A DNA stretch of 64,000 nucleotides from Vitellaria paradoxa. Its lineage: Eukaryota; Streptophyta; Magnoliopsida; Ericales; Sapotaceae. Shown here one piece after another: positions 30,588-56,760 of the stretch (its first letter is position 1; each line of letters opens with the position of its first letter). Both the position numbers and the translations under genes were made by a program. Below the pieces are notes generated by a model. That model made no database searches, was not told where the DNA came from, and was given only the letters and a program-made list of their open reading frames with translations. The stretch lies in NCBI GenBank assembly GCA_019916065.1, contig CM034236.1:19646805-19710804 (forward strand), in the 5' to 3' direction.

Positions 30588-32763
30588 ATGGCGAAATTTG
30601 CTGCGGTTCTGAAAGTTCTCTTGATTGTTATCTTTCTCTTCACTTTTGAGGTGGCGGCAAGGGAATTTGTTCATACTTGGAGCCCTTTTATCCCTTGTAA
30701 GTTCTGATTTGATTATGATTCATTTTAAAGTTGATTGATATATGTATATATATGTAACCATGTAACTATGTATCTATATTTACGTAGAGAGGGATAAAAA
30801 TTAGATGGTGCAAAAATGTAGGTCAACAAACTTAATTATATAGTATTTCTGATACTGGGGATGGAGGGTATGCCATGTAGCTTTAATTTTTTGTTTTCAT
30901 TTGTTTTGTTTTTAGTATATTTTTCTTTTTATTGTTTGACAAAAAAAAAATTAATTAAATAAACAGGAAAGGGAAGAGAAAGAGAGGGAGAGAGGGAGAG
31001 AGAAGAAGAAGAACAAGGAGGAGGAATTCGGAAGCTAGTATATGCATGTAATTTTATAGATTTATATATAATGTATATTTTGGTTTCAAAGAATATATAA
31101 TATATATTTATGAAGCAGTTTATAAATTGTCACTTTGAGTGCGCAAAGTTCATTTTCATAGCACTTCATAATATTTTGTTAAAACTAGACTAATTTCATA
31201 AGGTGAGGGAACCAAGGTATTTTATTTATATGGGGTAAGATATTAGCGAATTGGATATATATGTGAAGGGGTAGTTAGTGTAATATATTAGAATTTTTTT
31301 GTAGAAAAAATATTAATATAAATATAAATAAGATAATTTAAAATTTTTTCTTCTCTTTTAAATTTCATTTTGAATAAAGTCTATCTTCTTGGTGCTGTAC
31401 CAAATTATTTGAGAATTTAGGTGCTCTTTTGAATTCCATTTTGAATAAAGCCTATCTTATTAGTTTGTTTGATTGAGGCTGTATCAAATAATTTGAGGAT
31501 CTAAAGCGAAAAAAACAATTTAAGCCTAAAAATTTGGGTCTTGTAATATAGATACTCTTAGGTATTATTTCTATAAATTAAGACAAATTCTACAAATATT
31601 TGAGATTAAAATGAGCATTGAAGTTAATAAATAATAAAATTAAAATAATTAAATGTATCTATATAAATTAAGACAAATTCTATAAATATTTGAGATTAAA
31701 ATGAGCAAGTTAAGAAAAAAATAAAATTAAAATAATTAAATATATCTATATATATTTTTTAAATTTGAGGCTTGGTTATGAGGTTTTATTTCTATAAATT
31801 AAGACAATTTTCATAAAAATATTTAAAATTAAGATGAGGATTGAAGTTGAGAAAATAATAAAATTAAAATAATTAAATATATATATGCACTAAATTTGGG
31901 GCCTTCTTATTGGATGAGGTATTATTTTTATAAATTAAGATAAGTTTCAAAACTATTAAAACAAATATTGAGAATAAATGAAGAAAAAATTTAAAATAAT
32001 TAAATATATATATATATATTTAAATTTGAAACCTTCCTATTAGACTTAGCCTTAGGTATTTGTCTAAATTGTCAAATGATTGAATCAACCTTGGCTGCTA
32101 CTGTCACAGTTTACAACTTTTATATACACATATATATATAAGTTTTAATAAGGAATAATTTTTTTTTATCTTCTATACTTAAGGTAAGAATCACTTACAC
32201 CCTTTAAATTTTAAAAAGTAATATCAGTATCTCTTGTACTTACTCTTCAATAACCTATCTTTGAGCAGAAGTGTAGGTAATATAAAGTAAACGAGTATAA
32301 ACGTAATTTTTAAATTTATTTAAAGTTAAAACAATGTTTAACGGATTTTTTAATATTTTTATTTTGATTAAAAGTACAAAAGATATAAAGATAAGTTTTT
32401 AAAATTTAAAAACTTATGTACAAAAGATAAAAAAGCAATTACCCATTTTAATAACATATATATATACATATATATATGTCCAAATCCAAGGAGAGGGAAA
32501 AATACACCCGATCAGATAATTAGTTTAAAGAAAATACAGAATCGAAGGCAGTGCCTATTATTAGAGTAGGTTCTAGCCTAGTGAATTCTTTTTATTTTAT
32601 CAATGTCATTGTTATTCTTTTAGTTTTTATTTTCGGATATCACCAACCTCTTACGTGAAATAATTAACATTGTATTTATTTTGGTTTCTTCATTTCATCA
32701 TCAGACAAGAACAGTACGCAGCTGGTCAACCGTCCAGATAACCCATGGTCCCACAATCCCTGA
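30588..32763 (+). CDS. Small secreted peptide precursor, copy A (two exons)
   Basis: Exon 1 is 30588-30696 and exon 2 is 32705-32763, joined by a 2008-bp GT-AG phase-1 intron (GTAAGT donor, TCATCAG acceptor). The predicted protein has 55 aa. Residues 1-24 (MAKFAAVLKV... ending FEVAA) look like a signal peptide with an uninterrupted hydrophobic core and an A-A cleavage site before R25. The rest is REFVHTWSPFIPYKNS, then TQLVNRPDNPWSHNP. The start has plant context (AAAATGGCG) 47 nt after TATAAATAG. There are no cysteines, so it is not a defensin-type peptide. The Pro-rich C-terminus ending HNP recalls processed plant peptide hormones (CLE, IDA and RGF types often end HN or HH) but fits none of their consensus motifs. 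I do not recognise the family. Exon structure and frame are preserved in copies B and C. If the intron were retained, translation would stop after 39 codons. An AATAAA at 32988 may serve polyadenylation. Confidence 0.7.
30967..31035 (+). other. Purine-rich (GA) tract in the intron after a candidate acceptor
   Basis: After AAATAAACAG comes about 70 bp of almost pure purine (GAAAGGGAAGAGAAAGAG and onward), conserved in intron copies B (43061) and C (54762). Purine tracts can act as splicing enhancers. If used as an exon after exon 1, the joined codon would be TGA, a stop. The rest of the intron (to 32704) is AT-rich with no other feature seen. Confidence 0.35.
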
Positions 32764-33450
32764 TATCCATATCGTCAAAATTTGTGAACATTGGAATCCC
32801 ATCAGAGCCCTTTGAATCTGCTATTTGATACTGTAGTTTGCCATTTCATGTTGTACCGCTAAGCTCGGAAATGGTTATAAATTCCCCAAAAAAGTGATTT
32901 CATCTTGTATTTGGAAAAAAATAAAAATAAAAAGAAGAGATAGAGTTGAATTTTAGGTACATTGTATTTAGAGAAGTATATATTTTAAATAAATTCTTAC
33001 GAAATGATTCTAAGATAAGTTCGTGTGTTCCATAGTTAGAGTGTTTGCTATTATTAGTATCTTTTTCTTTTACACATTGTTTGGAATGGTGGATTTGATT
33101 TCATTTGATGAAAATTCTTTTCAATTTTTATGTTTAATGTTAAAATAAAATTTTATGAGTTTGATTTGATTTGATTTCATAATTTAAATTTTAAATTTTA
33201 TATATCATTTGAAATTTTAACTCAAAAGTAATAAAATTTGATGAGAATTCTTTTTTCCCTTAAACCATCTAAGTAAATGAGCAAATTTACTCTCATATAT
33301 CATATTTACCATATTTTTTATTTTCTATTAATATAGTTAAGTTTGATATTTCTTTCAAATGAGTTCAATTTAATTTTTAAATTCAAACATGTGTTTAAAT
33401 TTTATTTATCAAATTAATTCTAAAATAAAAATATTTTCCAAAGAGTATTA
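32764..33450 (+). other. 3' flank of gene A
   Basis: Bases up to about 32993 are the likely 3' untranslated region: ATATCCATATCGTCAAAA and AAGCTCGGAAATGGTTATAA are shared with copies B and C. AATAAA is at 32988-32993. Beyond that it is AT-rich without features. Confidence 0.45.
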
Positions 33451-33932
33451 GGATGAGTTTGGAGTGATAAAAACTGAGATAAAATGTGGTTTAAGAAAAT
33501 TTTTTGCGTTTGGTGCACACATTTCAAACCGCATTTTTTGGAGATGAATAGTAAGATTCATAGACGGATTCAAAATTTTTGACAATCATGACTTCTTTGC
33601 GTTGTAATCTATCCAAACAGATTGTAGAAACTGTTTGAACAAAAGTTAGCCACGCGTATCTATCAGAACGGTTTCTAAAATCCGTTTGAACGATTTTTAG
33701 GATCCCACAAAAAATAGTTAAAGTGGGTGTCACTTCGTAGTTTGAGAGTTCATGGTAAGAATGGTAAAAAAATTTTTGTTATTTGATTAACCGAATTTTA
33801 GTTATCGACTTTGTTTTAAAGATATTGATTTTTTTTTTTAAATTTTGAAAAGACGGGAATATGAAAAAATATATAGAAATTTTTAAAAATTTTCAAAAAT
33901 TTTCACCAAAAATTAGTGCATCAAACGTAACC
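33451..33932. mobile_element. 482-bp MITE private to unit A, TTA duplication
   Basis: TTA copies lie at 33448-33450 and 33933-33935. Unit B at the same place reads GTGTTAAGAATATTATT without the insert. Ends are GGATGAGTTTGGAGTGATAA and TCAAACGTAACC, matching as imperfect inverted repeats (GG.T..GTTTG). TTA and the GTTTG-type ends point to PIF/Harbinger. The inside contains short ORFs only. Confidence 0.75.
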
Positions 33933-33935
33933 TTA

Positions 33936-35699
33936 AGAATATTATTAGTCCCATGGAATTTGGTGTTTATATAACTTCAAAATGTATTTTATTATATAAA
34001 TTTTGTCCAGATAATACACGCCCGCCCATAATCACCTGAACGTCATGTAATAAACAAAAATAAATAAAGATGTACTAATGAAGTTCGCAAACACAACTTA
34101 TTACTTTCACAAGAAATGTAGACCAAAAAAAAAAAAATAAAATAAAATAAAAAATAAAAATAAATAAAATAAAATAAAAAAATAGAATCGATAAGCCTTC
34201 CTAGCAACCAGCAAAAGGGTGTTATTTAACTTGAAATATCTTATATGATTTTCTAGCATTGACTGTCTTCTCAGGTTATATTTTGACTACATCTCAACAA
34301 TGGAATCTAATGTTTGAAAATAAAAAATAATAAAATAAATCTATTTTTTTAAATTAAAATATTTCAAATTATTCTCCTCGCACACTTTATTTTTTTTTTA
34401 TTTTTATAGCTCTCAACAACATTTTGAAAATTTTATATAATCTAAATAGGTAAAATAGATATCTCATATTATTCTCACATGTGACCAAACTATTTTCTAT
34501 TTAACATTGATAGCAATCAACAGAGGAATTTAATTATGACAAATATTTCAAAATAAGAAAAATGAGTGTAAATTTAAATGTTGAGAGTAGTTACCAATAA
34601 TTAACCAAATATTGGGGGATGTAAATGTACTTACACTATTTTAAAAAATAAATTTGATTTTTATTCCTCTAAACTTTACTTAATACACCTTTAGGCTAGG
34701 ATTTGTTTTATTTTCTCTTAGTTTTGTAACCATTAAGAACTTGACACTTAAGGTTTTCATTAGCTGCTTAGAGATTTTTTTTGGGCACTTTCACCCTTAC
34801 TGTACATAAATTATCGTGATAAAAAAGTCATAGCAAGAGACATTGTAACTAACAATAGGTTCAGATCCTTAATTATTGCCCAAAAAAAAAAAGTCTTGAA
34901 ATAATAATTTTGATAAAATTAAGGAGGCTAAAATAAAATTTATCCTAATTTAAAGTACTATAATATAGAATAAAAAAAATAACCAGCTATGCCTCTTGCT
35001 ATAAAATATAATAAAATTAGCAATTGCCTGTATTTGAAGGCACAGAAATATAATTTGGCATATAAATATTTCAAATTTAAATTTATAAAACAAACTTACA
35101 TAAAAAATGTAAAAATAACCTATAAAATAAAAATCATTAATCGAAAGAGATTAAAGTATAAAATTTTATTGTTTATTACAAAAATTATCACATTTTTTAA
35201 AATATTAATTTAAAATCATTTGTATAAAAAATATTCAAAAAATAGAGGAAGAGTGAGAGAAAAAAGAAAAATAATTCTATCCATTTAACAAATTTAACAG
35301 CTGAAAATATATCAAATTTAAAATTTTAAACTTTCTTTTTATATAAATGACACATGATGTAAAGTCATGTATTTAAAATATAATAAATGTATGTATAATT
35401 TTACAAAATATGACATATATATTTAAAGGATGTATGAATTTCAAACATACACATATATATAATATATGTATGTATTTTAAATTCAAATGATATGTTTTAC
35501 TATATAGATTTATAATAAATAATGACATGGTAAACTTTTAGTAATGACTAGAATAAATATCAAATCAAAAGATACGTTTTATTATATAAATATATAATAA
35601 GTGATGATATGATAAATTTAGTAATAATTGGAACAAATATCAAATCACAGTGTGTGTTTTGCTACGTAGATAAACAATAAAAGTCTAAAAGAGCTATGC
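33936..35699. other. AT-rich part of unit A
   Basis: Aligns with 48102-49555 in B and, in part, 58155-59167 in C. Contains an (AAAAT)n run near 34130-34185. ORFs here are short, lysine/isoleucine-rich and not conserved between copies, so I call no gene. Confidence 0.5.
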
Positions 35700-36263
35700 C
35701 TCGTGGTTCGACCTATCTATCATACACGATCCTATTGAACCTCATGGTGAGTAGCAAGTTCGCATTTCTGAGCCTCGCAAAACTGGTGTGAATCCTAATG
35801 TTGATGTTGCTATACTGATTCCGGAAAATGATTTGGAAACTTCTAAAGTTAAGATTGAAGTGGGAAATTTGCGGATGGTGGTTTTGGGTTTGGAGGAAAA
35901 GGATGGAGAAGAGGTTTTGGATGCCATGACAGATCATGTTACTGTATGTCGTAAGGATTATGATCAGGAAGCTCCGACTAATTCAGAGAATGTGGTGAAG
36001 GAGGTCAATGTTGCGGAGGTTTCATCTTCTTCACAATCTGATTCTCAGTTTGTAGCTGTTATTAGTCCATTTGCTTCTTGTCATGAAGATGGGGATTTGG
36101 TGTTGAAAAAAGATCTTAAAATGGCTAAGTTGCAGAAGCAAAGGCAGGTTAATTCCTTGGGTCAATTTGATGAAATAAGGAACAAGATGTCTCAGAAAAA
36201 GTAGAAGCAGAAGAAACAAAAAGAGGAGGGAGCAAACCCGGTTTCTTCAAACTCAAATTAATG
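35700..36263 (+). pseudogene. Unrecognised coding fragment at the end of unit A
   Basis: One frame stays open from the ATG at 35788 to a stop at 36202-36204 (138 codons): acidic and serine-rich, with NPNVDVAILIPENDLETSKV, a SSSSQSDSQF stretch and a lysine-rich end (NKMSQKK). A further KQKKQKEEGANP follows the stop. It ends abruptly where the 36264 segment joins. The homologue in unit B (49560-50126) has a frameshift and stops. Codon use is less AT-skewed than the surroundings, suggesting a gene or LINE fragment captured by duplication. No domain is recognised. Confidence 0.45.
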
Positions 36264-36469
36264 TCTATGAAGATTTTTGACTGCAGTTCAATATTGTGGT
36301 TTCTTTGGGTTAGTCTCAGCCATGTGTTCATTGGCATGGAGATATTTGGTAATGCTAACTTTATCTGTTTTTGCCTTCTGTTCAAGTGTTTCTGTGGTTG
36401 TTTGTTGGGCGTTTTTGGTGGTGTGCTTTGCTTTATTGCAGCAGCTTTTGTGCTGATACTCCAGACCTT
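36264..36469 (+). other. Hydrophobic coding-like fragment joined to CACTA sequence
   Basis: Nearly identical to 51580-51764. In two of its frames it encodes a very hydrophobic stretch (for example SLAWRYLVMLTLSVFAFCSS). No homologue occurs in the full CACTA element at 14716-21776, so it is foreign to that element. It marks the junction of the tandem duplication. Origin unknown. Confidence 0.4.
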
Positions 36470-37196
36470 CCGTACGTACGGAAACTGATGCACAAGAGGC
36501 GTCGTTTTGGGTCAAGATAATGGACGAGATGGAGAGGTGTTTATTTTAGAGTCAAAGTCAGCCCCGTTCTGCTCAAGTTAAAAATATTAATTTTTATATT
36601 TATACTTAATTAAAATTTTATAAATTTATTTATTTATATTTTATTGTCACGTTCTCATTCGCTTATTGTTTCATTGTAGGATCCAGACGATAGCAGTTGG
36701 CCCTCCTGGACTGGACCAAGGTGATTTTGTACTGTTTTATTTTTTTTATTTTGTAAATTAATTGTTTATTTTCTTTTTCCTTTTGTGTATATTTGTATAT
36801 AACTTATTTTGTAATTAAATTTCGTACTATTGTTGTATATATAAATGAATATTTTTGTTTTATTTTATTTAAAAAATTTTCTAATACAGGTGCAATTTAA
36901 ATTATAAGTAAATTAAATTAATTTAGAAATAAATATTTTCAAATAAATAATATAAATAATAAATGAATTTAAAAATTAATAAAAAAGTAATTAAAATAAT
37001 TAAAACATTAATAATTTTTTTTTTAAATTAGAAAGTTTATTGCGATTGCCATATGCAATTGCTAATGAAATATCTAAAAAATATTTAAAAATAAATAAAA
37101 AATTAATACACTTTTGCGACTGCTAGAGGCGATCGCTAGTAAAGCCTAAACGGTTGCCAATGTCTTCCTGTCACATGGTGGGGACTTGGCTTTAAG
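36470..37196 (+). mobile_element. 3' part of CACTA element, first portion (start of unit B)
   Basis: Matches 21010-21717: the end of the TnpA-like gene (TGATGCACAAGAGG...GATGGAGAGGTGTTTA), a conserved GGATCCAGACGATAGCAG block, the AT-rich tail and GCAATTGCTAATGAAATATC. It continues at 40983 after the solo LTR. Confidence 0.85.
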
Positions 37197-38083
37197 TGTA
37201 ATAACCTGAATTTTTTTTTCTTAATTAAATTGCTTAAGTGTGGTCGTGATACTTGTTATAATAAAAATCTAGAAAATTGAGGATTTGAAAATTTTTGGAA
37301 TTGGTTGGAAAGATTTTCGGATTTAATTTCACCCTATGTGAGAGTTTAATGTAGATTTCTAAAATTTTTATCCAAACACTTCTTAGCCCAATTATTTATT
37401 TGGTTCAAACCAAGACTATTAACCCATGGGTCAACCCTTTTCTTTGACTCACCTCAACTCACTTCAACTCACTTCAACTCACTTTATCACTCAATGAATT
37501 GACTCATGAATAGTTGCTCTAAATTATTTCCCGACAACTTCATTTCCATCTTCCATACACTCTCACCATCTTTCAAAATTATTTGACTAATTGGACAAAG
37601 AGAAGACCCACATTGATGACCTTAAAGCATCTTTTTCAAATTATTTAGCAAACAAGATTTAAAGCATTTTATTTGAAAGTTAGCATGATTTAAAGCATTT
37701 GGTTAAATTGTCAAAAAGCTAGCATGATTGTTTAAATTTGTCAAAAAGTTAGCTTGATTCCCGGATCATGCCACCTCCATACATCTTCCCCAATGCTTTT
37801 CTTTAATGATATGGTTAGATAGTCAAAAAGTAAGCATGATTCTTGGATCATGCTACCAATTGTATAGGCATGATTTTACCTTAGTTGATTTTTTCTCCAC
37901 TAATAATTTTCTCTACACTCCCTATAAATTGTGTGTCTTCAAAGAGAAGAAAATAAGAGAGAAATAAAAATAAATTATTCATTAGTGAGGCTGAAGATTT
38001 GGTGTTGCTTGGAGGAAGAAGAAAGGCTTGGAATTTTCCAATTTGGGTGGTGTTCAAAGCTAACTCATTTTTCCTTCTCAGAC

Positions 38084-38309
38084 TTGGTCATTAATATCTT
38101 CATTGAGGTAGGATGATGAATCTCCTAAAATATATTTGATGCATTTTCTGGTTTGAAGTATGAAACTTAATTGTGATAAAAATAAATACCCGTATATTGG
38201 TCATTAATATCTTCATTGAGGTAGGATGATGAATCTCCTAAAATATATTTGATGCATTTTCTGGTTTGAAGTATGAAACTTAATTGTGATAAAAATAAAT
38301 ACCCGTATA
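38084..38309 (+). repeat. Exact 113-bp tandem duplication in the solo LTR
   Basis: Copies 38084-38196 and 38197-38309 begin TTGGTCATTAATATC and appear identical base for base. Perfect identity in an otherwise ageing region points to a recent slippage event or an assembly artefact. Confidence 0.9.
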
Positions 38310-39332
38310 TTGGGGGTAGGGAAGCCAAAATTTTGACTAAAGTAACTCAGTATGCTGACAGCTCTCTATTTGTAACTTCTTATGTGCTTCTAACCCCTAA
38401 AACGGTGGAATTAGGCTTTGGCTAAAACATAAAAGTTGTAGCCCTTTCAGTTTTCTTTTCAACCCAAAAAGAATTGCATCAATCCGATTTGTGAGTCAAA
38501 AGTTATGCCCAAAATACTGAGCACGTGTAAAATTATATTTTCTGGACAAACTGAATTCAAAGCTGTTTTTGTACCTTTAGACCTTAAAATTTTAAAAAGT
38601 GTAAAACATGAAAGTTGTAGGTCTTGAAGTCTAGTTTCTACAGATGTAAAGTTTATAGATATTAGAGTCTTACTCTATGTTATATGAATTTTCTTTCAAG
38701 CTGCTATTCTGTTTAGCTTTAATTGATGCTTGTTTGGATTTGTTTAGAATATTATGTTTAAAGATTTATTTAAATTTCCAATTTCCTTCTGTTAGTTATT
38801 GTCATGTTAATAATTTCTATTGATATGAAATTATTTTAAACTAGATATTATGTATTATTTGACACTCTAATATTGATGATAATTTGACTTAGATAATCAG
38901 TTTCATCATGGATAGTTGGATGACTTATTCAAACTAAAATGCTAGTATTTGATAAAATGCCCAAAAGAAACAATGGACTTGTTCTTTTCTCATTTGGTCT
39001 TTCTTAAATGAATTTGATTTATTTTGGCATTGTTTTGTCAACCTAGCAAGTTATATGATTATATTTTTATGATTAAGTGAATTTAATGAAACTCATTTAA
39101 TACCTTCCTAAACATTGGGATAATTCTGTGGACATTTGTGGATATCTTGAAACCAAAAACCTATGATAAGGGTTTGGTTATAAATAAGATGATGATTGGA
39201 AATTTATTTAAAGTTTTTTTTTGAATAAAATAAAACTTATCAATTTTGCTAAAAGTTAAATATAAGTCCAAGAGCTATTTATTATCTTTATATTCCATAA
39301 AATAATAAAATAAAAGGTAAAAGGAGCAAAAA

Positions 39333-39416
39333 CCGAGATTTGTAGCCAATGAGGTTCGAACTTGCGACTTTAAATCGCAATTAGGGTCGCCCACCCACTA
39401 AGCTACCAACCTCGGT
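39333..39416 (-). other. tRNA-like sequence in the solo LTR
   Basis: On the minus strand ACCGAG pairs with CTCGGT at the other end. TAGCTTAGTGGG fits the polymerase III A box and AAGTTCGAACC fits the B box. Loop spacing is off and the anticodon stem is irregular, so it is probably a tRNA-derived relic and not a working tRNA gene. Confidence 0.5.
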
Positions 39417-40136
39417 CTAATTAATATACCATTAGAAATAATTTTATTCTTATCAAATTTGGTACGGTAAGCTTGTCAAAACAATTAACTAAAATACTAG
39501 TTTGTATTCTAAATTTTTTTTTTACTTGCTAATTGTTAATTTACATATAGCGCCTACCTTTGTGATAATGATATTGATGACTATGTTAAATCTTTGATTT
39601 ATTGAGAATTACTATTAAAGTATGGATATAGATAAAGTGCTTAAAAATATATTGCATGTGACTAAATAATCTCACTTTTGATTCATCGCCCGAGAACATT
39701 GCCGGTTGTTGTTAAAAATGTCTGATTTCCATACAAGGTACCCTTGGAATGTAAAAGGGTGAGAAGAAATTAAGGCACTTCGTGCTAAAGCTATTTTTGG
39801 CAATGGGGTGATGGGTGGATAGAAATGGCCTTTTAGATGAAGATGAGAACATGCATTTTATTTGGGAGATGCTCCCTTCTGACCTGGCCAGTCAGGTAGC
39901 CGGTCGCGACGGCTAGGTTTTTGGTAGGTGACACCGTCGGTATGCATTGGATGCTAAGCCCGTAAAGTCACTGGTTCCCAAGGCTGGAGGTAGAGGAGGA
40001 TAGGAGTATGATTATCTTAGGAGGATTTATTTTAAACTCCTTTACAAAATTTTACTGTGACCAGCAACCTCTCTTGTTATGTATGAATGATGTGTTGGAA
40101 TTATTTAATTATATTTAATTCCTCTCGATTAATATT

Positions 40137-40137
40137 T

Positions 40138-40176
<39 letters not shown>
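40137..40176. repeat. (AT)n microsatellite
   Basis: About 16-17 AT units inside the solo LTR, next to the second tRNA-like relic. Confidence 0.95.
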
Positions 40177-40177
<1 letters not shown>

Positions 40178-40179
<2 letters not shown>

Positions 40180-40261
40180 AAACCGGTATCGCTACCGGGT
40201 TTGATCCCGAGACCTTGAAGATCTAAATCTGAGATCCCTACCACTGCGACACAGACTTCAT
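40178..40261 (-). other. Second tRNA-like relic
   Basis: On the minus strand TCGCAGTGGTAG fits an A box and GGGATCAAACCC a degenerate B box. The ends (ATGAAGT..., ...GGTTTCAT) pair partly. Same interpretation as the relic at 39333. Confidence 0.45.
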
Positions 40262-40982
40262 TGTGGTATACACATCAGTATTTAATTATTTTACATGTAA
40301 GTAAAATAGTAGTTACGGTGACGATTTCATCGAACCGTTGTAAGTATAATTTACATTATTCAGTTGAGATCTATTGAATTAATTGTTGCATAAATAGTAT
40401 GCCACTTAAACACATTCACTTAATACAGCGTAATATTACAACCACTGCATATAGGCACCTAGGAGATTCTGATTACTGGGCTTTAGTAGCTCACCCCTTG
40501 TAGGAATATTTTTTTCAGGATATTAAGCACAGGGATACAGAAGATGAGCTGGAAAGAGATTAAATTCTCTTAAATATTCCATCAGAAGAGTTATCTATTT
40601 TTTCTTCTTTTCTGCACAGAGCTGGAGGACTTTATTTTTGGTCTGTAATAATTGTTGGATGATTGTAATTATTAAGCATAGACCTAATTTGCTTTTATTT
40701 GGTATGTAATGTTAATAGCGTGATTGGGACACTTAGATGGTTCTGTAATATTTTGTGCCCTGTAGTTGAAATCCCATCAAATGGTTCAGTCCAATGACTT
40801 ATAAATATTGTTTGAGATAATCATAGGATTTTGACTATCTTAAATTTTTCTTACGGGTCAACCCCAATTTGGAGGAAAACTCTGGGGTGTGACAGCGTGT
40901 TATTATCGTTTTATTTTTATACCTAACAAATAAATTCCAAGTCACCCCTGGGCATTCGGTTATGAAAATCCGGGGCGTGACA

Positions 40983-41229
40983 TTAAGTTCAAAAGAAAGA
41001 ATTAGCGATCACTTGGTCCTTAAGCAATCGTGAAAGGTATCTACTTAAATTCACTAGCAGTCGACAATGTGGTCGCTAATACAAAAATAGCGGTCGCTAA
41101 TAAGTTTTAATGACGGTACAATTGCGACTCTTCAGCGGCAATCGCCAATATGTTTAAGCGACCGCTACCAGCCTTTTTAGCGTTAGCAACTGCTAGTGAC
41201 GGTTGCTAAAACCCTCTTTTCTAGTATTG
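40983..41229 (+). mobile_element. CACTA right end in unit B
   Basis: Continues 37196 after the solo LTR. Carries several subterminal GCGGTCGCTAATA / AGCGACCGCT repeats and ends CTAGTATTG, one mismatch from the complement of CACTACTAG, followed by TTG (41230-41232), the same triplet as before the left end at 14716. Confidence 0.8.
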
Positions 41230-41883: not shown

Positions 41884-42652
41884 TGATCTAGAGTGACGGA
41901 CAATCAGAAGTTTCGCAAGTAGAATGGGTTAGATAATCGTACTACTGTCAACCTCCTAAGCTGTGTGGTTTAGAAAGTCAAAATCAGAGACATTTTGCTA
42001 GGTGGACAATGACCCATAAATATTTTAGGTAAGTGAAAGAAAGTCAAGATCAGAGACAGTTTGCTAGGTTGACCATGACTCATTAATATTTTAGGTTAGT
42101 TAAAAAACTTGTGGACTGGACCCAGTCCATTTTCCTTGTGCCTGAAGTTCATAAAAGTTAATAATAATAATAATAAAAGTTAGTTAACTATATTTTGTTA
42201 TATATAGTAATGTGTTTGGTTGATTAAAATTAATTAAAATTTATTAATTTTTATCAAATTTTTATATATTTTTTTCATTAAATTTTAACACATGTCACTT
42301 TTACATCAAATTTTTATACTTTTATTATACTTTTTGACAAAACTTTTACCGATCAAAGTTTCATAGGTAAAATAGGCTAGATAATTGTAATACTGTCAAC
42401 CTCATAAAGCCGTGTGGTTTCGAAAGTCAAAATCGGAAACAATTTGCTAGGTTGACCATGAACCATAAATGTTTTAGGTGAGTAAAAGAAAGCCAAAATC
42501 AGAGACAATTTGCTTGGTTGACCATAACTCAATAATATTCTAGGTTAGTAAAAACGTGTTGATTGGACCCAGTCCATTTTCCTTGTGCCTGAAGTTCATA
42601 AAAGTTAATAGTAATAAAAAAAAGCTAGTTAATTATATTTTGTTATAAATAG
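41884..42652 (+). promoter_or_regulatory. Duplicated promoter of peptide gene B
   Basis: The promoter occurs twice: 41884-42210 (ending with a decayed TATATATAG box and TAATGTGTTTGG) and 42340-42652 with the intact TATAAATAG (42644-42652). W-box cores: AGTCAA at 41976, 42042 and 42425, TTGACC at 42069, 42452 and 42518, twice as many as in A. The two copies are separated by about 130 bp of AT-rich sequence. Confidence 0.6.
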
Positions 42653-42690
42653 CAACCTCTAACAATGTGTTTCCTCAAGTTAAAATTAAA

Positions 42691-44956
42691 ATGGCGAAGT
42701 TTGCTGCGGTTCTGAATGTTCTCTTGATTGTTATCTTTCTCTTCACTTTTGAGGTGGCTGCAAGGGAATTTGTTCACACTTGGAGCCCTCTTACCCCTTG
42801 TAAGTTCTGATTTGATCATGATTCATTTTAAAGCTGATTGATATATATATATGTGTGTGTGTAACTATTTAACTATATTTTTGTAGAGGGATAAAAAAAT
42901 ATATGGTGCAAGAATGTAGGTTAACGAACTTATATAGCATTTCTGACACTGGGGATGGAGGGTGTGTAGGGTCTTTAATTTTTTGTTTTCATTTGTTTTG
43001 TTTTTGGTATATTTTTCTTTTTATTGTTTGACAAAAGAAAATTAATAATTAAATAAACAGGAAAGAGTAGAGAAAGAGAGGGAGAGAGAAGAAGAAGAAC
43101 AAGGAGGAGGAATTCGGAAGCTAGTATATGCATGTAATTTTATAGATTTATATCTAATGTATATTTTGGTTTCAAAGAATATATAATATATATTTATGAA
43201 GCAGTTTATAAATTGTCATGTTGAGTGCGCAAAGTTCATTTTCACAGCACTTGTAATATTTTGTTAAAACCAGACTAATTTCATAAGGTGAGGGAACCAA
43301 GGTATTTTATTTATATGGGGTAAGATATTAGCGAATTGCATATATATGTGAAGGAGTAATTAGTGTAATATATTAGATTTTTCTTTTTGTTGAAAAAATA
43401 AAAATAAAAATAAGATAATTTAGAATTTTTTTCTCTTTTAAATTTCATTTTGAATAAAGCCTAACTTCGTGGTGCCATGTCAAACAATTTGGCGATTTAC
43501 GTGCTCTTTTGAATTCTATTTTGAATAAAGTTTGTCTTGTTGGCGTGTGGAATTATTTGGGGGTTTGGGGCCTAAAGTGAAAAAAATAATTTAGGCCTAA
43601 AAATTTGGGTTCTGTACCATAGATACTCTTAAGTATTTTTTTTATAAATTAAGACAAGTACGAAAAGTATTTCATAGAATGAGTATTAATGTTAAGAAAA
43701 AATAAAATTAAAATAATTAAATATATCTATATATATATTTTTTAAATTTGAGGTTTGGTTATGAGGTTTTATTTTTATAAATTAAGATAAGTTTTAAAAA
43801 AATATTTAAAATTAAGATGAGGCTTGAAGTTAAGAAAATGATAAAATTAAAATAATTAAATATATATATATGTATGTATTAAATTTTAGGGTTTTCTTAT
43901 TGGATGAATTATTATTTTTATAAAGTAAAATAAATTCCAAAACTATTAAGATGAATATTGAAGATGAAGAGAGGATAAATTTAAAATAATCAAATATATA
44001 TATATTTTTTAAACTTGAAGCCTTCCTAATAGGGGGCTTTAAGACATTGTCTAAGTTATCAAATGCTTGAATTGGCCCTAGCTGTGATGCCACTGTCATC
44101 TTTTACAACCTTTATATATATCTATATATATATAAGTTTTAATAAATTATAATTTCTTTTTTATTTTTCATAGTTAAGGTGAAAATCACTTACACATCTG
44201 AATTTTAAAAACTTACACTTATATTCTTTCTCTTGAATTTTAAAAATTTACATTTATATCTCTTATGCTTTGTACTAAAGTGAAGTTGTAAATAATGTCA
44301 AATTTTTAAGTGAAAAGATAAAAAATACTCATTAAAAATTAAATAAAATTAGAGAGTATACATACGCATATAAAAAAAATATATTCTATTTCTTATGATT
44401 CATTCAAACGAACTTTTACTTCTCAATAACCCATCTATGAATAAAAGTGTGGGTAATATAAAATAAAGAGGGTATAAATATAATTTTTAAATTTACTTAG
44501 AGTCAAAACTATTGTGTTTGACAAATTTTTTAATGTTTTCATTTCAATCAGAAATACAAAAGATGTAAATGTATTTTTTTTTAAATTTAAAGAGTATAAG
44601 TGATTTTTATCTTAAAAATGAAAAAATAATTGCCCCTCTTAATAAAATAGTAACATATATATGTCCAAATTCAAGGAGAAGAAAAAATACACCCAATCAG
44701 ATAACTAATTTAAAGACAATACAGAATCGAAGGCAGTACCTATTATTAAAGTTGGTTCTAGTCCAGTGAATTCTTTTCTTTTATCAATATCATTGTTAGT
44801 CTTTTAGTTATTATTTTTGGATATCACCAACCACTTACGTGAAATAATTAACTTTGTTTTGTCTTGGTTTTCTTCTTTTCATCATCAGACAAGAATAGTA
44901 GGCTGCTGCTCCGCAACCCTCCTTCTGGAGATATCTCATGGCCTCACAATCCCTGA
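42691..44956 (+). CDS. Small secreted peptide precursor, copy B (two exons)
   Basis: Exons 42691-42799 and 44889-44956 with a 2089-bp GT-AG phase-1 intron; predicted 58 aa. Signal peptide as in copy A with K9N. Then REFVHTWSPLTPYKNS and the tail RLLLRNPPSGDISWPHNP. Exon 1 differs from copy C by one base (T36 codon ACC against CCC) and from copy A by three silent and three replacement changes. The tail is the most altered part but keeps frame, the Trp, and HNP before TGA. Same promoter spacing (TATA to ATG 47 bp). It may act as an extracellular signalling peptide after processing near R-rich or Pro-rich sites; that is inference from layout only. Confidence 0.7.
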
Positions 44957-47135: not shown

Positions 47136-47561
47136 GAAATTTATGTATCATTTGAAATTTTAATTCAAAAATAATAGAATTTAATGAGAATTCATTTTTA
47201 TCATAATCCATCTAAGTAAAACTACTCTCTTATATCATGTTTACCATATTTTCTATTTCTTATTGATATGGTTAAGTTTGATATTTCTTTTAAATGAATT
47301 CAATTTAATTTTTAAATTTAAACACGTGTCTAGATTTCATTTATTAATTAAATCAAATCAGTTTTAAAATAAAAATATTTTCCAAACAGGGTGTTAAGAA
47401 TATTATTGATCTCTTTAACTCTAGAGTTTGGATAGAATTTGGTGTTTTTACGACTTCAAAATGAATTTTATTATATAAATGTTGAATCTATTATACACAA
47501 CACCTCACGTCACTTTGTCCAGATAATACGCGCCCGCCCATAATCACCTGTACGTCATCTA

Positions 47562-48101
47562 GGCACCATTTGGAGTGTTATAAAACTTCAAAAAATTATA
47601 TAAAATTCTAATAAATTTTATAATTTATTAAAATTCTCTATTACATTTTTACTTTTTTTCACCTTCACTAACTTAAAAAAATTTCAATATTTTATTAAGA
47701 AAATAAAAAATTCGTAACGAAATTAATTGAGTGTGAATTTTTTTCTTTTTACAATCATATTTTTCACGTCGAAAGTTTTCAAATGAGTATCATTGTCGCT
47801 TATTTATCTTCAATTTTTAATCTGTTAGAATAGATTTGGGTAAACAGTTCTAATGGTTAATCGGTATAGAATCCGTTAGAATGGATTTTGAAGACCGTTC
47901 TAACGGTTTTGTTTTGTTCAGAGAGAGAAAAAGTATTTTTTGAATCTGGTAGAACGGATTTAGGAAACCGTTCTAAAAGTTTTAGCACTGTTCATATCTA
48001 AAAAACGCAATTTGAATAAAACACCAAACGCCCTCAAAAACCCAAAATCATGTTTTTTCTTTTTTTTTTTTCTTTTTTTTTTATCACTCCAAATGCTACA
48101 G
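47562..48101. mobile_element. 540-bp MITE-like insert shared by units B and C
   Basis: Absent from unit A, which reads GTCATGTAATAAAC at 34041-34054. Ends GGCACCATTTGGAGTG and CACTCCAAATGCTACAG form an inverted repeat centred on CATTTGGAGTG. Inside are several copies of CCGTTCTAACGG / CCGTTAGAATGG. Its presence in B and C only shows that these two units share a more recent ancestor. Confidence 0.7.
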
Positions 48102-49559
48102 TAATAAACAAAAATAAATAAAGATGTATAAATGAAGTTCCCAAACACAACTTATTACTTAATTTCACAAGAAATGTAGACCCAAAAAAAAAAATTAATA
48201 ATAATAATAAAATAGACTCGATAAGCCGTCCTAGCAACCAGCAAAAGGGTGTTATTTAACTTGAAATATCTTATATGATTTTCTAGCATTGACCGTCTTC
48301 TCAGATTATATTTTGACTACATCTCAACAATGGAATCTAATATTATTGTCACATGTGACCAAACTATTTTCTATTTAATATTGATAGCAATCAACAGAGA
48401 AATTTAATTATGACAAATATTTCAAAATAAGAAAAATGAGCATAAATTTAAATGTTGAGAATAGTTACCAATTATTAACTATTTTAAAAAATAAATTTGA
48501 TTTTTTTTATTCCTCTAAACTTTAATTAATACATCTTTAGGCTCGAATTTGTTTTATTTTCTTTTAGTTTTGTAACCATTAAGAACTTGACACTTAAGCT
48601 TGTCGTCAGCTGCTTAGAGTTTTTTTTCTTTTTTTTTTTTTTGGGACTTTCACCGTTGCCGTACATAAAGTATAGTGATAAAAAATTCATAGCAAGAGAC
48701 ATTATAACTGGCAAAAGTTTCAGATCCTTAATTACTACCAAAAAAAAAAAAAAAGTCTTGAAATAACAATTTTGATAAAATTAAGGAGGCTAAAATAAAA
48801 TTTATCCTACTTTAAAGTACTATAATATAGAATCAAAAAAATAACCAGCCATGCCTCTAGCTATAAAATATAATAAAACTAACAATTGCTTGTGTTTGAA
48901 GGCACAGAATATAATTTGACATATAAATAATTCAAATTGAAATTTATAAAACAAACTTATATAAAAAATGTAAAAATAACCTTTAAAAATAAAAATCATT
49001 AATCAAAAGAGATTAAAGTATAAAATTTTATTATTTATTACAAACATAATCACTTTTTTTAAAATATTAATTTAAAATCGTTTGTATAAAAATATTAAAA
49101 AAATATAGGAAGAGTGAGCGAAAAAAGAAAAATAATTCTGTCCATTTAACAAATTCAACAGCTGAAAATATATTAAATTCAAAATTTTAAACTTTTTTTT
49201 TATATAAATGACACATGGTGTAAAGTCATGTATTTAAAATATAATAAATGTATGTATAATTTTACAAAATATGACATATATATTTAAAGGATGTATGAAT
49301 TTCAAACATATACATATATATAATATATGTATGTATTTTAAATTCAAATGATATGTTTTATTATACAGATATATAATAGGTGATGACACGGTGAACTTTT
49401 AATATTGACTAGAAAAAATATTAAATCAAAAGATATGTTTTATTATATAAATATATAATAAGTGATGATATGATAAATTTAGTAATAATTGGGATAAATA
49501 TCAAATCACAGTGAATATTTTGTTACTTAGATAAACAATAAAAGTCTAAAAGAGCTATG
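48102..49559. other. AT-rich part of unit B
   Basis: Homologous to 34050-35699. No gene seen. A deletion of about 120 bp relative to A lies near 48340. Confidence 0.5.
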
Positions 49560-50126
49560 CCTCGTAGTTCGACCTATCTATCATACACGATCCTATTGAA
49601 CCTCATGGTGAGCAGCAAGTTCGCATTTCTGAGCCTCGCAAAACTGGTGTGAATCCTAATGTTGATGTTGCTATACGAGTTCCGGAAAATGATTTGGAAA
49701 CTTCTAAAGTTAAGATTGATGTGGGAAATCAGCGGATGGTGGTTTTGGGTTTGGAAAAAAAGGATGGAGAAAGAGGTTTTGGATGCCATGACAGATCATG
49801 TTATTGTATGTCGTAAGGATTATAATCAGGAAGCTCCGACTAATTCAGAGAATCTGGTGAAGGAGATTAATATTGCGGAGGTTTCATCTTCTTCTCAATC
49901 TGATTCTTAGTTTGTAATTAGTCCATTTGCTTCTTGTCATGAAGATGGGGATTTGGTGTTGAAAAAAGATCTTAAAGTGGCTAAGTTGTAGAAGCAAAGG
50001 TAGGTTAATTCCTTGGGTCAATTTGATGAAAAAGGAACAAGATGTCTCATAAAAAATAGAAGCGAAAGAAACATAAAGAGGAGGGAGCAAACCCAGTTTC
50101 CTTAAACTCAAATTAATGTCTGTGAA
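49560..50126 (+). pseudogene. Unrecognised coding fragment in unit B, frameshifted
   Basis: Homologue of 35700-36263. Here an extra base near 49775 (AGAAAGAGG against AGAAGAGG) and stops (for example TAG at 49908) break the frame. The sequence runs on into GATTTTGATGGTTTTTATGG, which A lacks. Confidence 0.5.
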
Positions 50127-51579
50127 GATTTTGATGGTTTTTATGGCATAGGGTTGAGAAAAATATCTTGAATGGAATGATGAACTCTTTAAAAATTTTT
50201 CTGATGTACAGCCGAAGCACCTTGTTCTCAACGATTTAGCATTCCAAAGCTATTCTCAACTATCTCTTTAGATAGATGTGTGTGGTCACCTATTTTTCAG
50301 ATCACATGTCTTATTAATATATAAAAGATATTTATATAGAAAGAGATGCAGAGTTTGTATTAGAGAAAATCTCTAACTCTAGAGATTATCTCTTATCCAC
50401 TCTTACATATATCTTATCTATATATATTATCCTGATATATATTTAGAAGATATGGTATCTTGAGAAAATCTTCCAACCATATCATCCTATCTAAATATAT
50501 GTTAATTATCTATAATTTATTTTATAAATAAATTATAAATAATTAGCCAACTGGACCTAGCCCATCAAGTTAAAATTGAGCTAGCTTGGGGACTGAAGGC
50601 TCATGGATTCCTAGCTCCAACTTAAAAGATATTTGGGTCTTGTCGTCTCATGACAACCCATTATCTTTTAAATTAACCCAGAGTTATTTCACTAAAAGGT
50701 CTGAGCTGCACTCTAGCAGTCCATATTGAAATTCATTTAGTTAAAACAACTTTTAATAAAATGAATTTTGGTCTTAGACCAATAATATCTATTTAATTAA
50801 CCCTCTATTATAAGCTCGTAATTAAGTTAAGCTAAATGTCGAGCCCCTTAATTACATATTTACCCTAAGTCTTTATTTATTTTAATTTTGATCATTCTCA
50901 ATATTTTCATATTTGTAAACAATTTACAAATAAATATTGTTATTCAATAAGTAATTTATTGAATAAATTGCGGTCACAGATTTAATGATAAAAAAGATAA
51001 ATAGCTTAGGTGAGCATATCAAAATGGATTCCATCTTGTAAGTATACGTTCCCATGATTCATGAAATTAAATCTCCAAGTTATCGAGATTTTGACCATTT
51101 TAAAATCTCACTCCGTGATAACTCAAATAAATTTAATTAATAAATGTGAGTCCATTACAAACTCAGGATTAAGGTTTATTAAGTTTATTAAAGTTTAAGT
51201 AAATTATGATTAATGACATTTATTAACTAAATCATAATTTACAATTGTCATTTCAATAAGTATATCACATATACATATTAACTTTCCTACTCAAAGTCAC
51301 CACTTTAGTGATCAAGATAAATCACCTAATTAAGAAGTAGAAAAGTTACAGTTTTAACATAATGAAATGCTCGTTTCATTAATAACTGTGAATTTACTTT
51401 TATTTATAAAACTTTTGGTTTAAATTTTTCTATATTAGTATCTTATACCCAATACTTAAATCACATGTTTTATAAATAAGGGACATTAATGTATACTTAA
51501 ATAAATAAATATTTTATTATATCTAGAAAAAAAATTAAAATAAAATATCATTACATAAAACATGCTTTCAAGGGCACTA
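50127..51579. other. 1.45 kb segment between the coding fragment and the CACTA chunk of unit C
   Basis: Unit A joins GAAGATTTT directly to TTGACTGCAG; in B this segment intervenes. ATTTT borders it on both sides (50122-50126 and 51575-51579), a possible 5-bp duplication. The inner part (from about 50277, TGTGTGGTCACC) has the look of a Copia-type LTR, but no start/end pair is clear. No gene seen. Confidence 0.35.
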
Positions 51580-52742
51580 ATTTTGACTGCAGTTCAATAT
51601 TGTGGTTTCTTTGGGTTAGTCTTAGCCATGTGTTCATTGGCATGGAGATATTTGGTAATGCTAACTTTATCTGTTTTTGCCTTTTGTTCAAGTGTTTCTG
51701 TGGTTGTTTGTTGGGCGTTTTTGGTGGTGTGCTTTGCTTTATTGCAGCAGCTTTTTGTGCTGATACTCCAGATCTTCCGTACGGAGATGGATGTGCAAGA
51801 GGTGTCACTTCGGATCGAGATGATAGCCGAGATGGAGAGGTGCTTATATTAGAGTCAAAGCCAGCCTCATCCTCCTCAAGTTAGAAATATTAATTTTCAT
51901 ATTTATACCTAATTAAAATTTTATAACTTTATTTATTTATATTTTGTTCTCATGTTCTCATTTGCTTATTGTTTCATTGTAGGATCCAGACGACGGCAAT
52001 TGGCCCTCCTGGACTGGACTAGGGTGATTTTGTATTGTTTTGTTTTTTGTATTTTGTAAATTAATTGTTTATTTTCTTTTTCCTTTTGTGTATATTTGTA
52101 TATAACTTATTTTTTTATTAAATTTTGTACTATTTTTGTATATATAAATGAACATTTTTGTTTTATTTTATTTAAAAAATTTTCTATTACATGTGCAATT
52201 TAAATTATAAGTAAATTAAATTAATTTAGAAATAAATATTTTCAAATAAATAATATAAATAATAAATGAATTTAAAAATTAATAAAAAAGTAATTAAAAT
52301 AATTAAAACATTAATAATTTTTTTTTAAAAATTAGAAAGTTTATTGGGATTGCCATATGTAGTTACTAATGAAATATCTAAAAAATATTTAAAAATAAAT
52401 AAAAAATTAATACACTTTTGCGACCGTTAGAGGCGGTCACTAGTAAAGCCTAAACGGTTGCCAATGTCTTCCCGTCACATGGTGGGGACTTGGCATTAAG
52501 TTCACAAGAAATAATTAGCGATCGCTTGGTCTTTAAGCGATCGTGAAAGGTATCTACTTAAATTCAGTAGCAGTCGCCAATGCGGTTGCTAATACAAACA
52601 CAGCGGTCGCTAATAGATTTTAATGACGATACAATTGCGACTCTTCAGCGGCATTCGCCAATATGTTTTAGCAACCGCTACCTGCCTTTTTAGCGTTAGC
52701 AATCGCTAGTCGCGATTGCTAAAACCCTCTTTTCTAGTATTG
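51580..52742 (+). mobile_element. Hydrophobic fragment plus CACTA 3' part at the start of unit C
   Basis: 51580-51764 repeats the fragment at 36264; 51765-52742 is the CACTA 3' part without the solo LTR, so it shows the empty site. It ends CTAGTATTG followed by TTG (52743-52745). Confidence 0.85.
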
Positions 52743-53419
52743 TTGTGATCAAACTTAAAGAAGTAAATAGTTAGGAGTATAACACTTTATTTTGAATAGT
52801 AGATTTGATGGGATCTGATTTATTTGATGAAAATTTTCACTATTCTTATGTTTGAGATCAAAATAAACTTTTATATATTGGATTTAATTTCATTTCATAA
52901 CTTTAATTTTGGAATTTATATATCGTTTGAAATTCAATTCAAAACAATAGGATTTAATAAAAATTTATTTTTTTAAATTATCCAGGTAGACAAATTTACT
53001 CTCATACATCATATTTGTTATATTTTCTTTTTTTACTAGTATGGTCAAATTTGATATTTTTCTTAAATTAATTCAATTTAATTCTTAAATTTAAATAAGT
53101 ATTTTAAATATAAAATTTTATTTATCAAATTAAATAAAATAATTTTTTTCTTTAAAATCAAATTAATTTTAACATAGAAATGTTTTTAAACGGGGTGTAA
53201 AAGTTTTTATTTTTTTAATTTAGTACTTCAACCAGTTCTAATTTAGCCACTTTATGATTTTTATTTATTTATTATTATTATTATTATTTTTTTGAACAGG
53301 GCGGCAAAACAAAGGTACGTGTGGACAGATACTATGGGGAAATTAAACGATACAAATTCCTAGAATAGGTCCAAAGCGAATTAGAGCATTGATCATGATC
53401 TAGAGTGACGGACAATCAA

Positions 53420-54349
53420 AAGTTTCGCAAGTAGAATGGGTTAGATAATTGTACTACTGTCAACCTCCTAAGCTGTGTGGTTTAGAAAGTCAAAATCAGA
53501 GACAATATGGGGTTCGTTTGGTATGCAATAATTTATTAAAAATTTCTAAAAATCTCTATAAATCTCTGTTAACTTTATATCACATCAATTTTTTTTTCTC
53601 ACTGCACGTATTACGAACTCTCCCCAAATCACAATTTATCTTATTTTTTTTTACTCCAAACAAACCCATGATAGGTGGACCATGACCCATAAATATTTTA
53701 GGTAAGTAAAAGAAAGTCAAAATCAGAGACAATTTGCCAGGTTGACCATGACTCATTAATATTTTAGGTTAGTAAAAAAACTTGTGGATTGGACCCAGTC
53801 CATTTTCCTTGTGCCTGAAGTTCATAAAAGTTAACAATAATAATAAAAAAGCTAGTTAATTATATTTTGTTATAAATAGTAATGTGTTTGATTGACTAAA
53901 ATTAATTAAAATTTACTAACTTTTATCAATTTTTTATACTTTCTTCTCATTAATTTTAACATATATCACTTTTACATCAAATTTTTATATTTTTATTATA
54001 CTTTTTTACTAAACTTTTATCAATCAAATATCTCATAGTGATCAACAATCAAAAGTTTCATAAGTAAAATAGGTTAGATAATTGTAATACTGTCAACCTC
54101 ATAAAGCTGTGTGGTTTAGAAAGTCAAAATCGGAGACAATTTGCTAGGTTGACCATGAACCATAAATGTTTTAGGTGAGAAAAAGAAAGCCAAAATCAGA
54201 GACAATTTGCTTGGTTGACCATAACTCAATAATATTCTAGGTTAGTAGAAACGTGTTGATTGGACCCAGTCCATTTTCCTTGTGCCTGAAGTTCATAAAA
54301 GTTAATAGTAATAAAAAAAAGCTAGTTAATTATATTTTGTTATAAATAG
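53420..54349 (+). promoter_or_regulatory. Duplicated promoter of peptide gene C, with a MITE inside
   Basis: Two promoter copies as in B; the intact TATAAATAG is at 54341-54349. The upstream copy is split by a 159-bp MITE (53509-53667). W-box cores AGTCAA and TTGACC recur in both copies (for example near 53490, 53714, 53742, 54121, 54150 and 54217). Confidence 0.6.
53509..53667. mobile_element. 159-bp MITE in the promoter of gene C
   Basis: Starts GGGGTTCGTTTGGTATG and ends ACTCCAAACAAACCC, an inverted pair of about 13 bases. Units A and B lack it. The flanking duplication is unclear (AT on both sides). End style matches Harbinger-type MITEs such as that at 24240. Confidence 0.75.
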
Positions 54350-54387
54350 CAACCTCTAACAATGTGTTTCCTCAAGTTAAAATTAAA

Positions 54388-56760
54388 ATGGCGAAGTTTG
54401 CTGCGGTTCTGAATGTTCTCTTGATTGTTATCTTTCTCTTCACTTTTGAGGTGGCTGCAAGGGAATTTGTTCACACTTGGAGCCCTCTTCCCCCTTGTAA
54501 GTTCTGATTTGATCATGATTCATTTTAAAGCTGATTGATATATATATATATGTGTGTGTGTAACTATTTAACTATATTTTTGTAGAGGGATAAAAAAATA
54601 TATGGTGCAAGAATGTAGGTTAACGAACTTATATAGCATTTCTGACACTGGGGATGGAGGGTGTGTCATGGGTCATTAATTTTTTGTTTTCATTTGTTTT
54701 GTTTTTAGTATATTTTTCTTTTTATTGTTTGACAAAAGAAAATTAATAATTAAATAAACAGGAAAGAGTAGAGAAAGAGAGGGAGAGAGAAGAAGAAGAA
54801 CAAGGAGGAGGAATTCGGAAGCTAGTATATGCATGTAATTTTATAGATTTATATATAATGTATATTTTGGTTTCAAAGAATATATAATATATATTTATGA
54901 AGCAGTTTATAAATTGTCATGTTGAGTGCGCAAAGTTCATTTTCACAGCACTTGTAATATTTTGTTAAAACCAGACTAATTTCATAAGGTGAGGGAACCA
55001 AGGTATTTTATTTATATGGGGTAAGATATTAGTGATCGAATTGCATATATATGTGAAGGAGTAATTAGTGTAATATATTAGATTTGTTTTTGTTGAAAAA
55101 ATAAAAATAAAAATAAAAATCAAAATAATTTAGAATTTTTTTTCTCTTTTAAATTTCATTTTGAGTAAAGCCTAACTTGGAAGTGCCTTATCAAACAGTT
55201 TGGGGATTTACGTGCTCTTTTGAATTCTATTTTGAATAAAGTTTGTCTTGTTGGCCTGTTTAGATCGGGGCGTATGGAATTATTTGGGGCTTGGGGCCTA
55301 AAGTGAAAAGAATAATATAGGCCTAAAAATTTGGGTTCTGTATATAGATACTCTTAAGTATTATTTTTATAAATTAAGACAAGTACAAGAAATATTTCAT
55401 AAAATGAGTATTAAAATTAAAAAAAATAAAATTAAAATAATTAAATATATCTATATAAACTAAGATAAGTTCTATAAATATTTAAGATTAAAATGCGCCA
55501 AGTTAAGAAAAAATAAAATTAAAATAATTAAATATATCTATATATATATATATATTTTAAATTTGAGATCTGATTATGAGGTATTATTTTTATAAATTAA
55601 GATGAGTTTCAAAAAAATATTTAAAATTAAGATGAGGCTTGAAGTTAAGAAAATGATAAAATTAAAATAACTAAATATATATATGTATGTATTAAATTTT
55701 GGGGCTTTCTTATTGGATGAGTTATTATTTTTATAAATTAAGATAAATTCCAAAACTATTAAGATGAATGTTGAAGATGAAGAGAGGATAAATTTAAAAT
55801 AATCAAATATATATATATTTTTTTTTAAATTTGAAGCTTTCCTATTAGACGGGGCTTTAAGCCATTGTCTAAGTTATCAAATGCTTGAATCGGCCCTAGC
55901 CGTGATGCCACTGTCACCTTTTACAACCTTTATATATATCTATATATATATAAGTTTTAGTAATGGATAATTTCATTTTTATTTCTTATAGTTAAGATGG
56001 AAATCACTTGTACATTTGAATTTTAAAAACTTGCACTTATATAATTTCTTTTGAAATTTAAAAACTTACATTTATATCTCTTATATTTCGTACTAAAGTG
56101 AAGTTGTAAATGACGTCAAATTTTTAAGTAAAAAGATAAAAAATACTCATTAAAAACTAAATAGAATTAGAGAGTATACATGCACATATAAAAAAGTATA
56201 TTCTATTTCTCATGATTCATTCAAACGAACATTTACTCCTCAATAACCCATCTTTGAATAAAAGTGTGGGTAATATAAAATAAAGAGGATATAAACATAA
56301 TTTTTAAATTTACTTAGAGTTAAAACCATTGTGTTTAACAAATTGTTAACATTTTCATTTCAATCAAAAATATAAGAATTGTAAATGTATCTTTTTAAAG
56401 TTTAAAGAGTATAAGCGATTTTTATCTTATGTACAAAGGATGAAAAGATAACTTAGTAACTTATATATGTCCAAATTCAAGGAGAGGGAAAAATACACCC
56501 AATCAGATAACTAATTTAAAGACAATACAGAATCGAAGGCAGTACCTATTATTAAAGTTGGTTCTAGCCTAGTGAATTCTTTTTATTTTATCAATATCAT
56601 TGTTAGTCTTTTAGTTATTATTCTTGGATATCACCAACCTCTTACGTGAAATAATTAACATTGTTTTGTTTTGGTTTTCTTCTTTTCATCTTCAGACAAG
56701 AATAGTAGGCTGCTGATCCGCCCTCCTTCTAAAGATAACCCATGGCCTCACAATCCCTGA
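54388..56760 (+). CDS. Small secreted peptide precursor, copy C (two exons)
   Basis: Exons 54388-54496 and 56696-56760 with a 2199-bp GT-AG phase-1 intron; predicted 57 aa. Signal peptide identical to copy B. Then REFVHTWSPLPPYKNS and the tail RLLIRPPSKDNPWPHNP. Against copy B the second exon has five base substitutions, all replacements, and loses one codon (AAC) without breaking frame. DNPW is shared with copy A, WPHNP with copy B. Promoter spacing is unchanged. Function unknown; the layout (signal peptide, short variable middle, conserved C-terminus) is that of plant peptide-hormone or phytocytokine precursors. Confidence 0.7.

Follow-up and report, generated by a model that had tools for sequence, protein, structure and literature searches.

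Do three closely similar loci in a 64,000-nucleotide stretch of the genome of Vitellaria paradoxa (contig CM034236.1; the whole stretch is called the window below) encode a family of very small secreted peptides, and if so, what could such peptides be for? The loci had been proposed, from the letters of the DNA, to be tandem copies of a two-exon gene with a signal peptide, and the gene models of this original prediction proved to be exact to the base. On the reading we favour, to which we give a probability of roughly 0.45, they would form a lineage-restricted family of cysteine-free secreted peptides, organised in the manner of a SCOOP cluster, whose products may act as extracellular ligands of a receptor.

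Gene structure and coding capacity of the three copies

All three copies lie on the forward strand and have the same TATA box, ATG, 109-nt first exon, phase-1 intron, short second exon and stop. From ATG to ATG they are 12,103 and 11,697 bp apart, in keeping with the spacing of 12.1 and 11.7 kb given before, and the predicted products have the expected lengths of 55, 58 and 57 amino acids. In copy 1 the TATA box (30541..30549), 47 nt upstream of the ATG, is followed by exon 1 (30588..30696), which reads as a signal peptide and REFVHTWSP, by a predicted phase-1 intron running from GTAAGT to CAG (30697..32704, from the sequence and the alignment of the copies), and by the coding part of exon 2 including the stop (32705..32763; product 55 residues). 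The corresponding features are found at 42644..42652, 42691..42799, 42800..44888 and 44889..44956 in copy 2 (58 residues), and at 54341..54349, 54388..54496, 54497..56695 and 56696..56760 in copy 3 (57 residues). In each case the TATA box, TATAAATAG, starts 47 nt before the ATG, the ATG stands in the context AAAATGGCG, and the donor GTAAGT and the acceptor CAG bound a predicted intron of 2.0-2.2 kb in phase 1. The hexamer GTAAGT occurs 12 times on the forward and 23 times on the reverse strand of the window. Left unspliced, every copy would reach a stop in the exon 1 frame after 39 codons.

Are these exons coding, or merely duplicated DNA? Exon 1 aligns without an indel in any pair of copies, and the indels of exon 2 measure 3 and 6 nt (copies 1-2), 6 nt (1-3) and 3 nt (2-3); in the intron, indels in multiples of three make up 7 of 31, 7 of 29 and 2 of 19 for the same pairs, which are not independent, the family being three related sequences only. 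In a neutral simulation of 20,000 runs calibrated on the intron, with a copy counted as intact if it kept ATG, GT, AG, frame and stop, single copies stayed intact with P = 0.12 and all three with P = 0.0039, a figure that is optimistic because the open reading frame (ORF) had been selected for being intact. The replacements, moreover, are unevenly distributed. Between copies 1 and 2, ten of the 12 fall in columns 34-53: columns 1-33 contain one nonsynonymous change in 76 sites and three silent changes in 23 (residues 1-33: nonsynonymous rate Ka 0.013, synonymous rate Ks 0.146; Fisher P = 0.038), and columns 34-58 contain 11 nonsynonymous changes in 51 sites (P = 0.00018 against columns 1-33, with a boundary chosen afterwards). 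A scan statistic for the clustering of replacements in windows of 15 or 20 codons gave P of about 0.01 for the same two copies. The identity of exon 1 is 94.5% (copies 1-2), 93.6% (1-3) and 99.1% (2-3), that of the 346 bp upstream 90.5%, 91.8% and 97.3%, and that of the intron 86% when copy 1 is compared with either of the others and 94% for copies 2-3; in windows of 60 columns, copy 1 against the others, exon 1 scores 0.92-0.97 and the first ~200 nt of the intron 0.77-0.91. We regard the frame-keeping indels and the uneven replacement as the signals that are probably informative about coding; as judged from the sequence, it is quite probable that the three copies are protein-coding, and likely that they are both coding and secreted.

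The predicted peptides and their possible relatives

The products begin with MAKFAAVL(K/N)VLLIVIFLFTFEVAA and continue as REFVHTWSP..PYKNS...W(S/P)HNP. The motifs described earlier are thus indeed shared: residues 1-33 are common to the products except for residue 9, followed by PYKNS and the terminal W(S/P)HNP. The N-terminus is also signal-peptide-like as proposed, with a maximal Kyte-Doolittle mean over 12 residues of 3.2 in the two copies scored, 1 and 3. Small secreted peptides of plants are generally recognised by a short ORF with an N-terminal signal peptide and a motif conserved in the family; with their hydrophobic N-terminus and shared motifs, the predicted products may belong among them. 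The hydrophobic core ends in EVAA, directly before R25. Signal peptidase sites obey the -3/-1 rule, and since EVAA before R25 fits it, a mature chain of 31-34 residues is likely to be released from the precursor. This mature part has 8 prolines in 33 residues and a net charge (K+R-D-E) of +3 in copy 3, and 5 prolines in 31 residues and a net charge of +1 in copy 1. Neither a cysteine nor a DY sulfation site is present in any of the three spliced products; an N-x-S/T site occurs in copy 1 only, at N39, and in every product a single residue follows the pair HN at the C-terminus.

According to the favoured reading, each gene of this tandem family of three would encode a cysteine-free secretory pre-peptide, which signal peptidase would cut after A24 to leave a chain of 31-34 residues beginning at REFVHTWSP. 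Between its constant ends (REFVHTWSP..PYKNS and W-x-HNP) would lie a spacer that changes fast and differs by indels of 3 and 6 nt, and the mature peptide would act outside the cell as a receptor ligand, either a phytocytokine or a peptide hormone. Removal of the last P would create an HN end, the C-terminal Asn of which could meet the arginines of a leucine-rich repeat (LRR) receptor kinase, as in RGF1 and AtPep1. Such arginines are described as contacting the last Asn of RGF1 through an RXR motif, and Asn23 of AtPep1, and TDIF also ends in Asn (PMC6749341; this and the other papers are cited from the available parts of their text). Taken together, the HN near the C-terminus of all three products, the Asn contacts of known ligands and the residues that follow HN in IDL peptides make a ligand role the leading reading, for which we infer expression, splicing, cleavage, trimming and a receptor from the sequence. 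One could also speculate, at rather long odds, that the peptides represent a ligand class freed by signal-peptide cleavage alone, in which two separately conserved ends are connected by a variable spacer and the copies are differently tuned two-point ligands. If true, such a two-ended class would be a lineage-restricted signalling family overlooked by annotation, and either this or a further ligand family with HN near its end would be directly testable with synthetic peptides and receptor panels. Very short split genes easily escape annotation; in the CTNIP family, over 40% were unannotated (PMC9191895).

In line with the original prediction, the signatures of IDA, PIP, CEP, PSY, CLE, RGF/GLV and CIF are absent from all three products; a PSK motif is lacking as well. 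The CLE domain has the core R-x-V-P-x-G, SCOOP peptides are recognised by a Ser-rich SxS motif, and CIF peptides carry a sulfated DY; neither the CLE core nor SxS is found in any of the three proteins, and the lack of a DY pair in all of them applies to CIF and RGF/GLV alike. A Pro/Ser-containing stretch that ends near HN is a point of likeness to CLE peptides. In CLE precursors, however, a variable domain separates the signal peptide from the ligand (PMC11538016), and the products have no such domain. The sulfated DY of GLV peptides is documented in PMC4526923, and without a DY pair the PSY pattern DYX5-7NXXHXP cannot match either; the HxP ending recalls PSY and the nematode MigPSY peptides, the genes of which have one intron and no variable domain (PMC10629525). 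None of the proteins contains the S(G/A/V)PS core followed by (R/K)(R/K)HN of IDA/IDL or the C-terminal SPG(I/V)GH of CEP (both PMC4526919), the C-terminal GxGH of PIP/PIPL, or the two conserved cysteines that define CTNIP/SCREW (PMC9191895). An Arg after the signal peptide is shared with IDA/IDL and PIP/PIPL, and an HN near the C-terminus with IDL, where up to 13 residues follow it, but the Arabidopsis genes of these families are given as intronless (PMC4526919), whereas an intron of 2.0-2.2 kb is predicted here. The genome organisation of the array appears closest to that of the PROSCOOP clusters, which likewise consist of tandem genes of two or three exons with a signal peptide, without cysteine, among transposon remnants, lineage-restricted and partly unannotated; for PROSCOOP genes, no detection outside Brassicaceae and lengths of 72-117 amino acids are reported (PMC6382344), compared with 55-58 here, where SxS is moreover missing. 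Since the family signatures are not found, we assign the peptides to no named family, and their HN near the C-terminus seems to resemble IDA, RGF or CLE ligands only loosely.

At E up to 10, Pfam returned no family for any of the three proteins, and PDB sequences gave no match to the mature part of copy 3, the only query used there, at the same limit. Among 5.8 billion proteins, neither the three-copy alignment nor copy 3 with nine motif variants (most other positions set to X) found a candidate with three shared 5-residue words, the number this search needs, so distant or unannotated relatives would escape it. As a positive control, the retrotransposon integrase piece of the window retrieved 27 proteins out of 51 candidates; plant names from NCBI are attached to five (one Camellia, four Henckelia), which shows that some plant proteins are present in the database and does not indicate how far its plant coverage extends. 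The claim that the family is undescribed thus stands in part: no match was found among these proteins, some plant ones included, in a word-based search to which catalogues and supplements of small secreted peptides did not belong. Viral contigs contained no relative of the peptide genes, and in prokaryote genome contigs one match among 12 pattern matches, open over the 60 codons read and having mainly DNPWSHNP in common, was judged to be due to chance; as these collections are viral and prokaryotic and the protein search depends on shared words, the absence of orthologues does not follow. Rfam at its gathering threshold and ARAGORN gave no hits, and a literature search for the string REFVHTWSP found none. 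Shorter motif strings led to WPHNP in a motif of the PERK-1 kinase, judged unrelated, and the available portions of PMC4526923, PMC13091385, PMC13205790 and PMC11756074 hold nothing that matches the peptide sequence.

Counter-evidence and rival explanations

A number of observations weigh against the ligand reading. The conservation of exon 1 is matched by a block of the copy 1 intron (30958..31260, forward strand; gaps aside, windows of 60 columns that begin at 30958-31228 show a substitution identity of 0.95-1.00 with copies 2 and 3) and by the TATA-proximal promoter (0.95-0.96 between copy 1 and the others in windows near the TATA box). Because these neighbours are equally conserved, nucleotide similarity alone is no proof of coding, and we rejected exon-1 identity as a proof of function. 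The copies resemble each other less in exon 2 than in the intron: where copy 1 is compared with the others, exon 2 reaches 81-85% and the intron 86%, and for copies 2-3 the values are 92% and 94%. At a local divergence of 5%, the low number of replacements in residues 1-33 is not significant (Poisson P 0.11), and copies 2 and 3 show 6 replacements but not one silent difference, so that no constraint is visible between them. As for the peptide, copy 1 differs from the others by one replacement within W-x-HNP; the best-conserved segment of the mature chain is, on our comparison, N-terminal, where most known ligands have C-terminal motifs; the last P after HN must be either cut off or tolerated; and the variable region of CLE precursors is missing from the precursor. 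The conserved intron block, which begins GA-rich, could possibly be an intronic enhancer or other regulatory element, or an alternative start region; in the comparison of copy 1 with the others, high conservation within about the first 550 nt of the intron is confined to about 30900-31260, with 0.92-1.00 in 60-column windows.

Could the loci instead be non-coding, as a spliced non-coding RNA or a regulatory duplicate, or follow another gene model in which exon 1 is joined to a different exon? The position of the most conserved stretch within the intron would agree with this, as would the DNA directly after the stop, where the bases at 32764-32797 are near-identical in all copies and better conserved than exon 2. 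On the forward strand of the aligned block, exon 1 alone provides an ATG ORF of at least 30 amino acids whose start is aligned across the three copies. The reverse strand has one ATG ORF starting in a common column (30, 52 and 52 amino acids; position 31047 in copy 1), which is strongly hydrophobic and lies in the intron; a common ORF that begins hydrophobic is therefore no proof by itself, and frames of this kind can persist in duplicated DNA rich in AT or GA. This ORF, read leftwards from 31047, is the complement of the GA-rich tract. Among the 83 AG acceptors that are aligned across all copies, the proposed one follows a T/C-rich stretch and opens 19, 22 and 21 residues up to a common stop, and the one at 31039 opens 20 residues in every copy; the proposed acceptor is therefore well placed and not unique. 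However, no pyrimidine tract is present in the 20 nt before 31039. A further acceptor, 10 nt downstream of the proposed site, was rejected: it opens longer frames in the first two copies but meets a stop in copy 3 after three residues. With exon 1 free of indels in every pair besides, we find the non-coding and alternative models quite improbable.

The remaining explanations accept a translated product. A young orphan gene, transcribed and translated without a settled function, would owe most of the similarity of its copies to recent duplication; in its favour are the failure of the Pfam, PDB, protein and viral searches to find a relative, with a chance match as the sole prokaryote result, the non-coding neighbours as similar as exon 1, the lower conservation of exon 2 than of the intron and the purely nonsynonymous divergence of copies 2 and 3. 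It is less easily reconciled with indels that keep the frame and splice signals that stay intact in all three copies (P about 0.004), or with replacements concentrated in one segment, and we deem it unlikely; should it hold, the locus would still clearly illustrate how a candidate gene for a secreted peptide was recently amplified in tandem within DNA rich in transposons. We see a similarly small chance for a defence role, in which a short, proline-containing peptide would be secreted and would itself act on microbes or feeding animals, its middle being under diversifying selection. Columns 41-53, a region chosen afterwards, outpace the intron, with 8 nonsynonymous changes against 3.0 expected for copies 1-2 (P = 0.012) and 5 against 1.5 for copies 2-3 (P = 0.017), and the proline content and charge of mature copy 3 would suit such a role. 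Copy 1, however, with its 5 prolines and a charge of only +1, fits less well, cysteine is absent throughout, and both ends are constant, so that the chain is not variable along its whole length.

Genomic surroundings

The window has a GC content of 30.4%. Apart from the peptide gene, no convincing gene was seen in the duplicated unit by an ORF survey and a comparison of two unit ORFs with Pfam, neither of which rose above the cut-off; a different gene driving the duplication was rejected as an explanation, the ORFs seen being only transposon-like or fragmentary. Elsewhere, Pfam identifies retrotransposon gag domains at 1956-3572 and 24505-25035, an integrase-type piece at 6240-6689 is 43-54% identical to Camellia and Henckelia proteins, a match that by itself would make a plant source very probable, and a DUF4218-like fragment at 18480-18698 stays below the Pfam cut-off. 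Copies 2 and 3 have the promoter segment, up to the TATA region, a second time farther upstream (41903-42207 and 53669-53879), in neither case followed by an exon 1 match; at the thresholds applied, no such duplicate was detected for copy 1. A tandem array at 61729-62798 (period 204 bp, 5.2 copies) contains the words GGTCGCTAAA and TTTAGTCGC and presumably resembles a transposon-derived satellite. Direct repeats at 21777-23361 and 27960-29549, 95.2% identical, flank the gag-like ORF at 24505-25035 and look like long terminal repeats, and a further pair at 1-699 and 1112-1807, 96.1% identical, is separated by only 412 bp.

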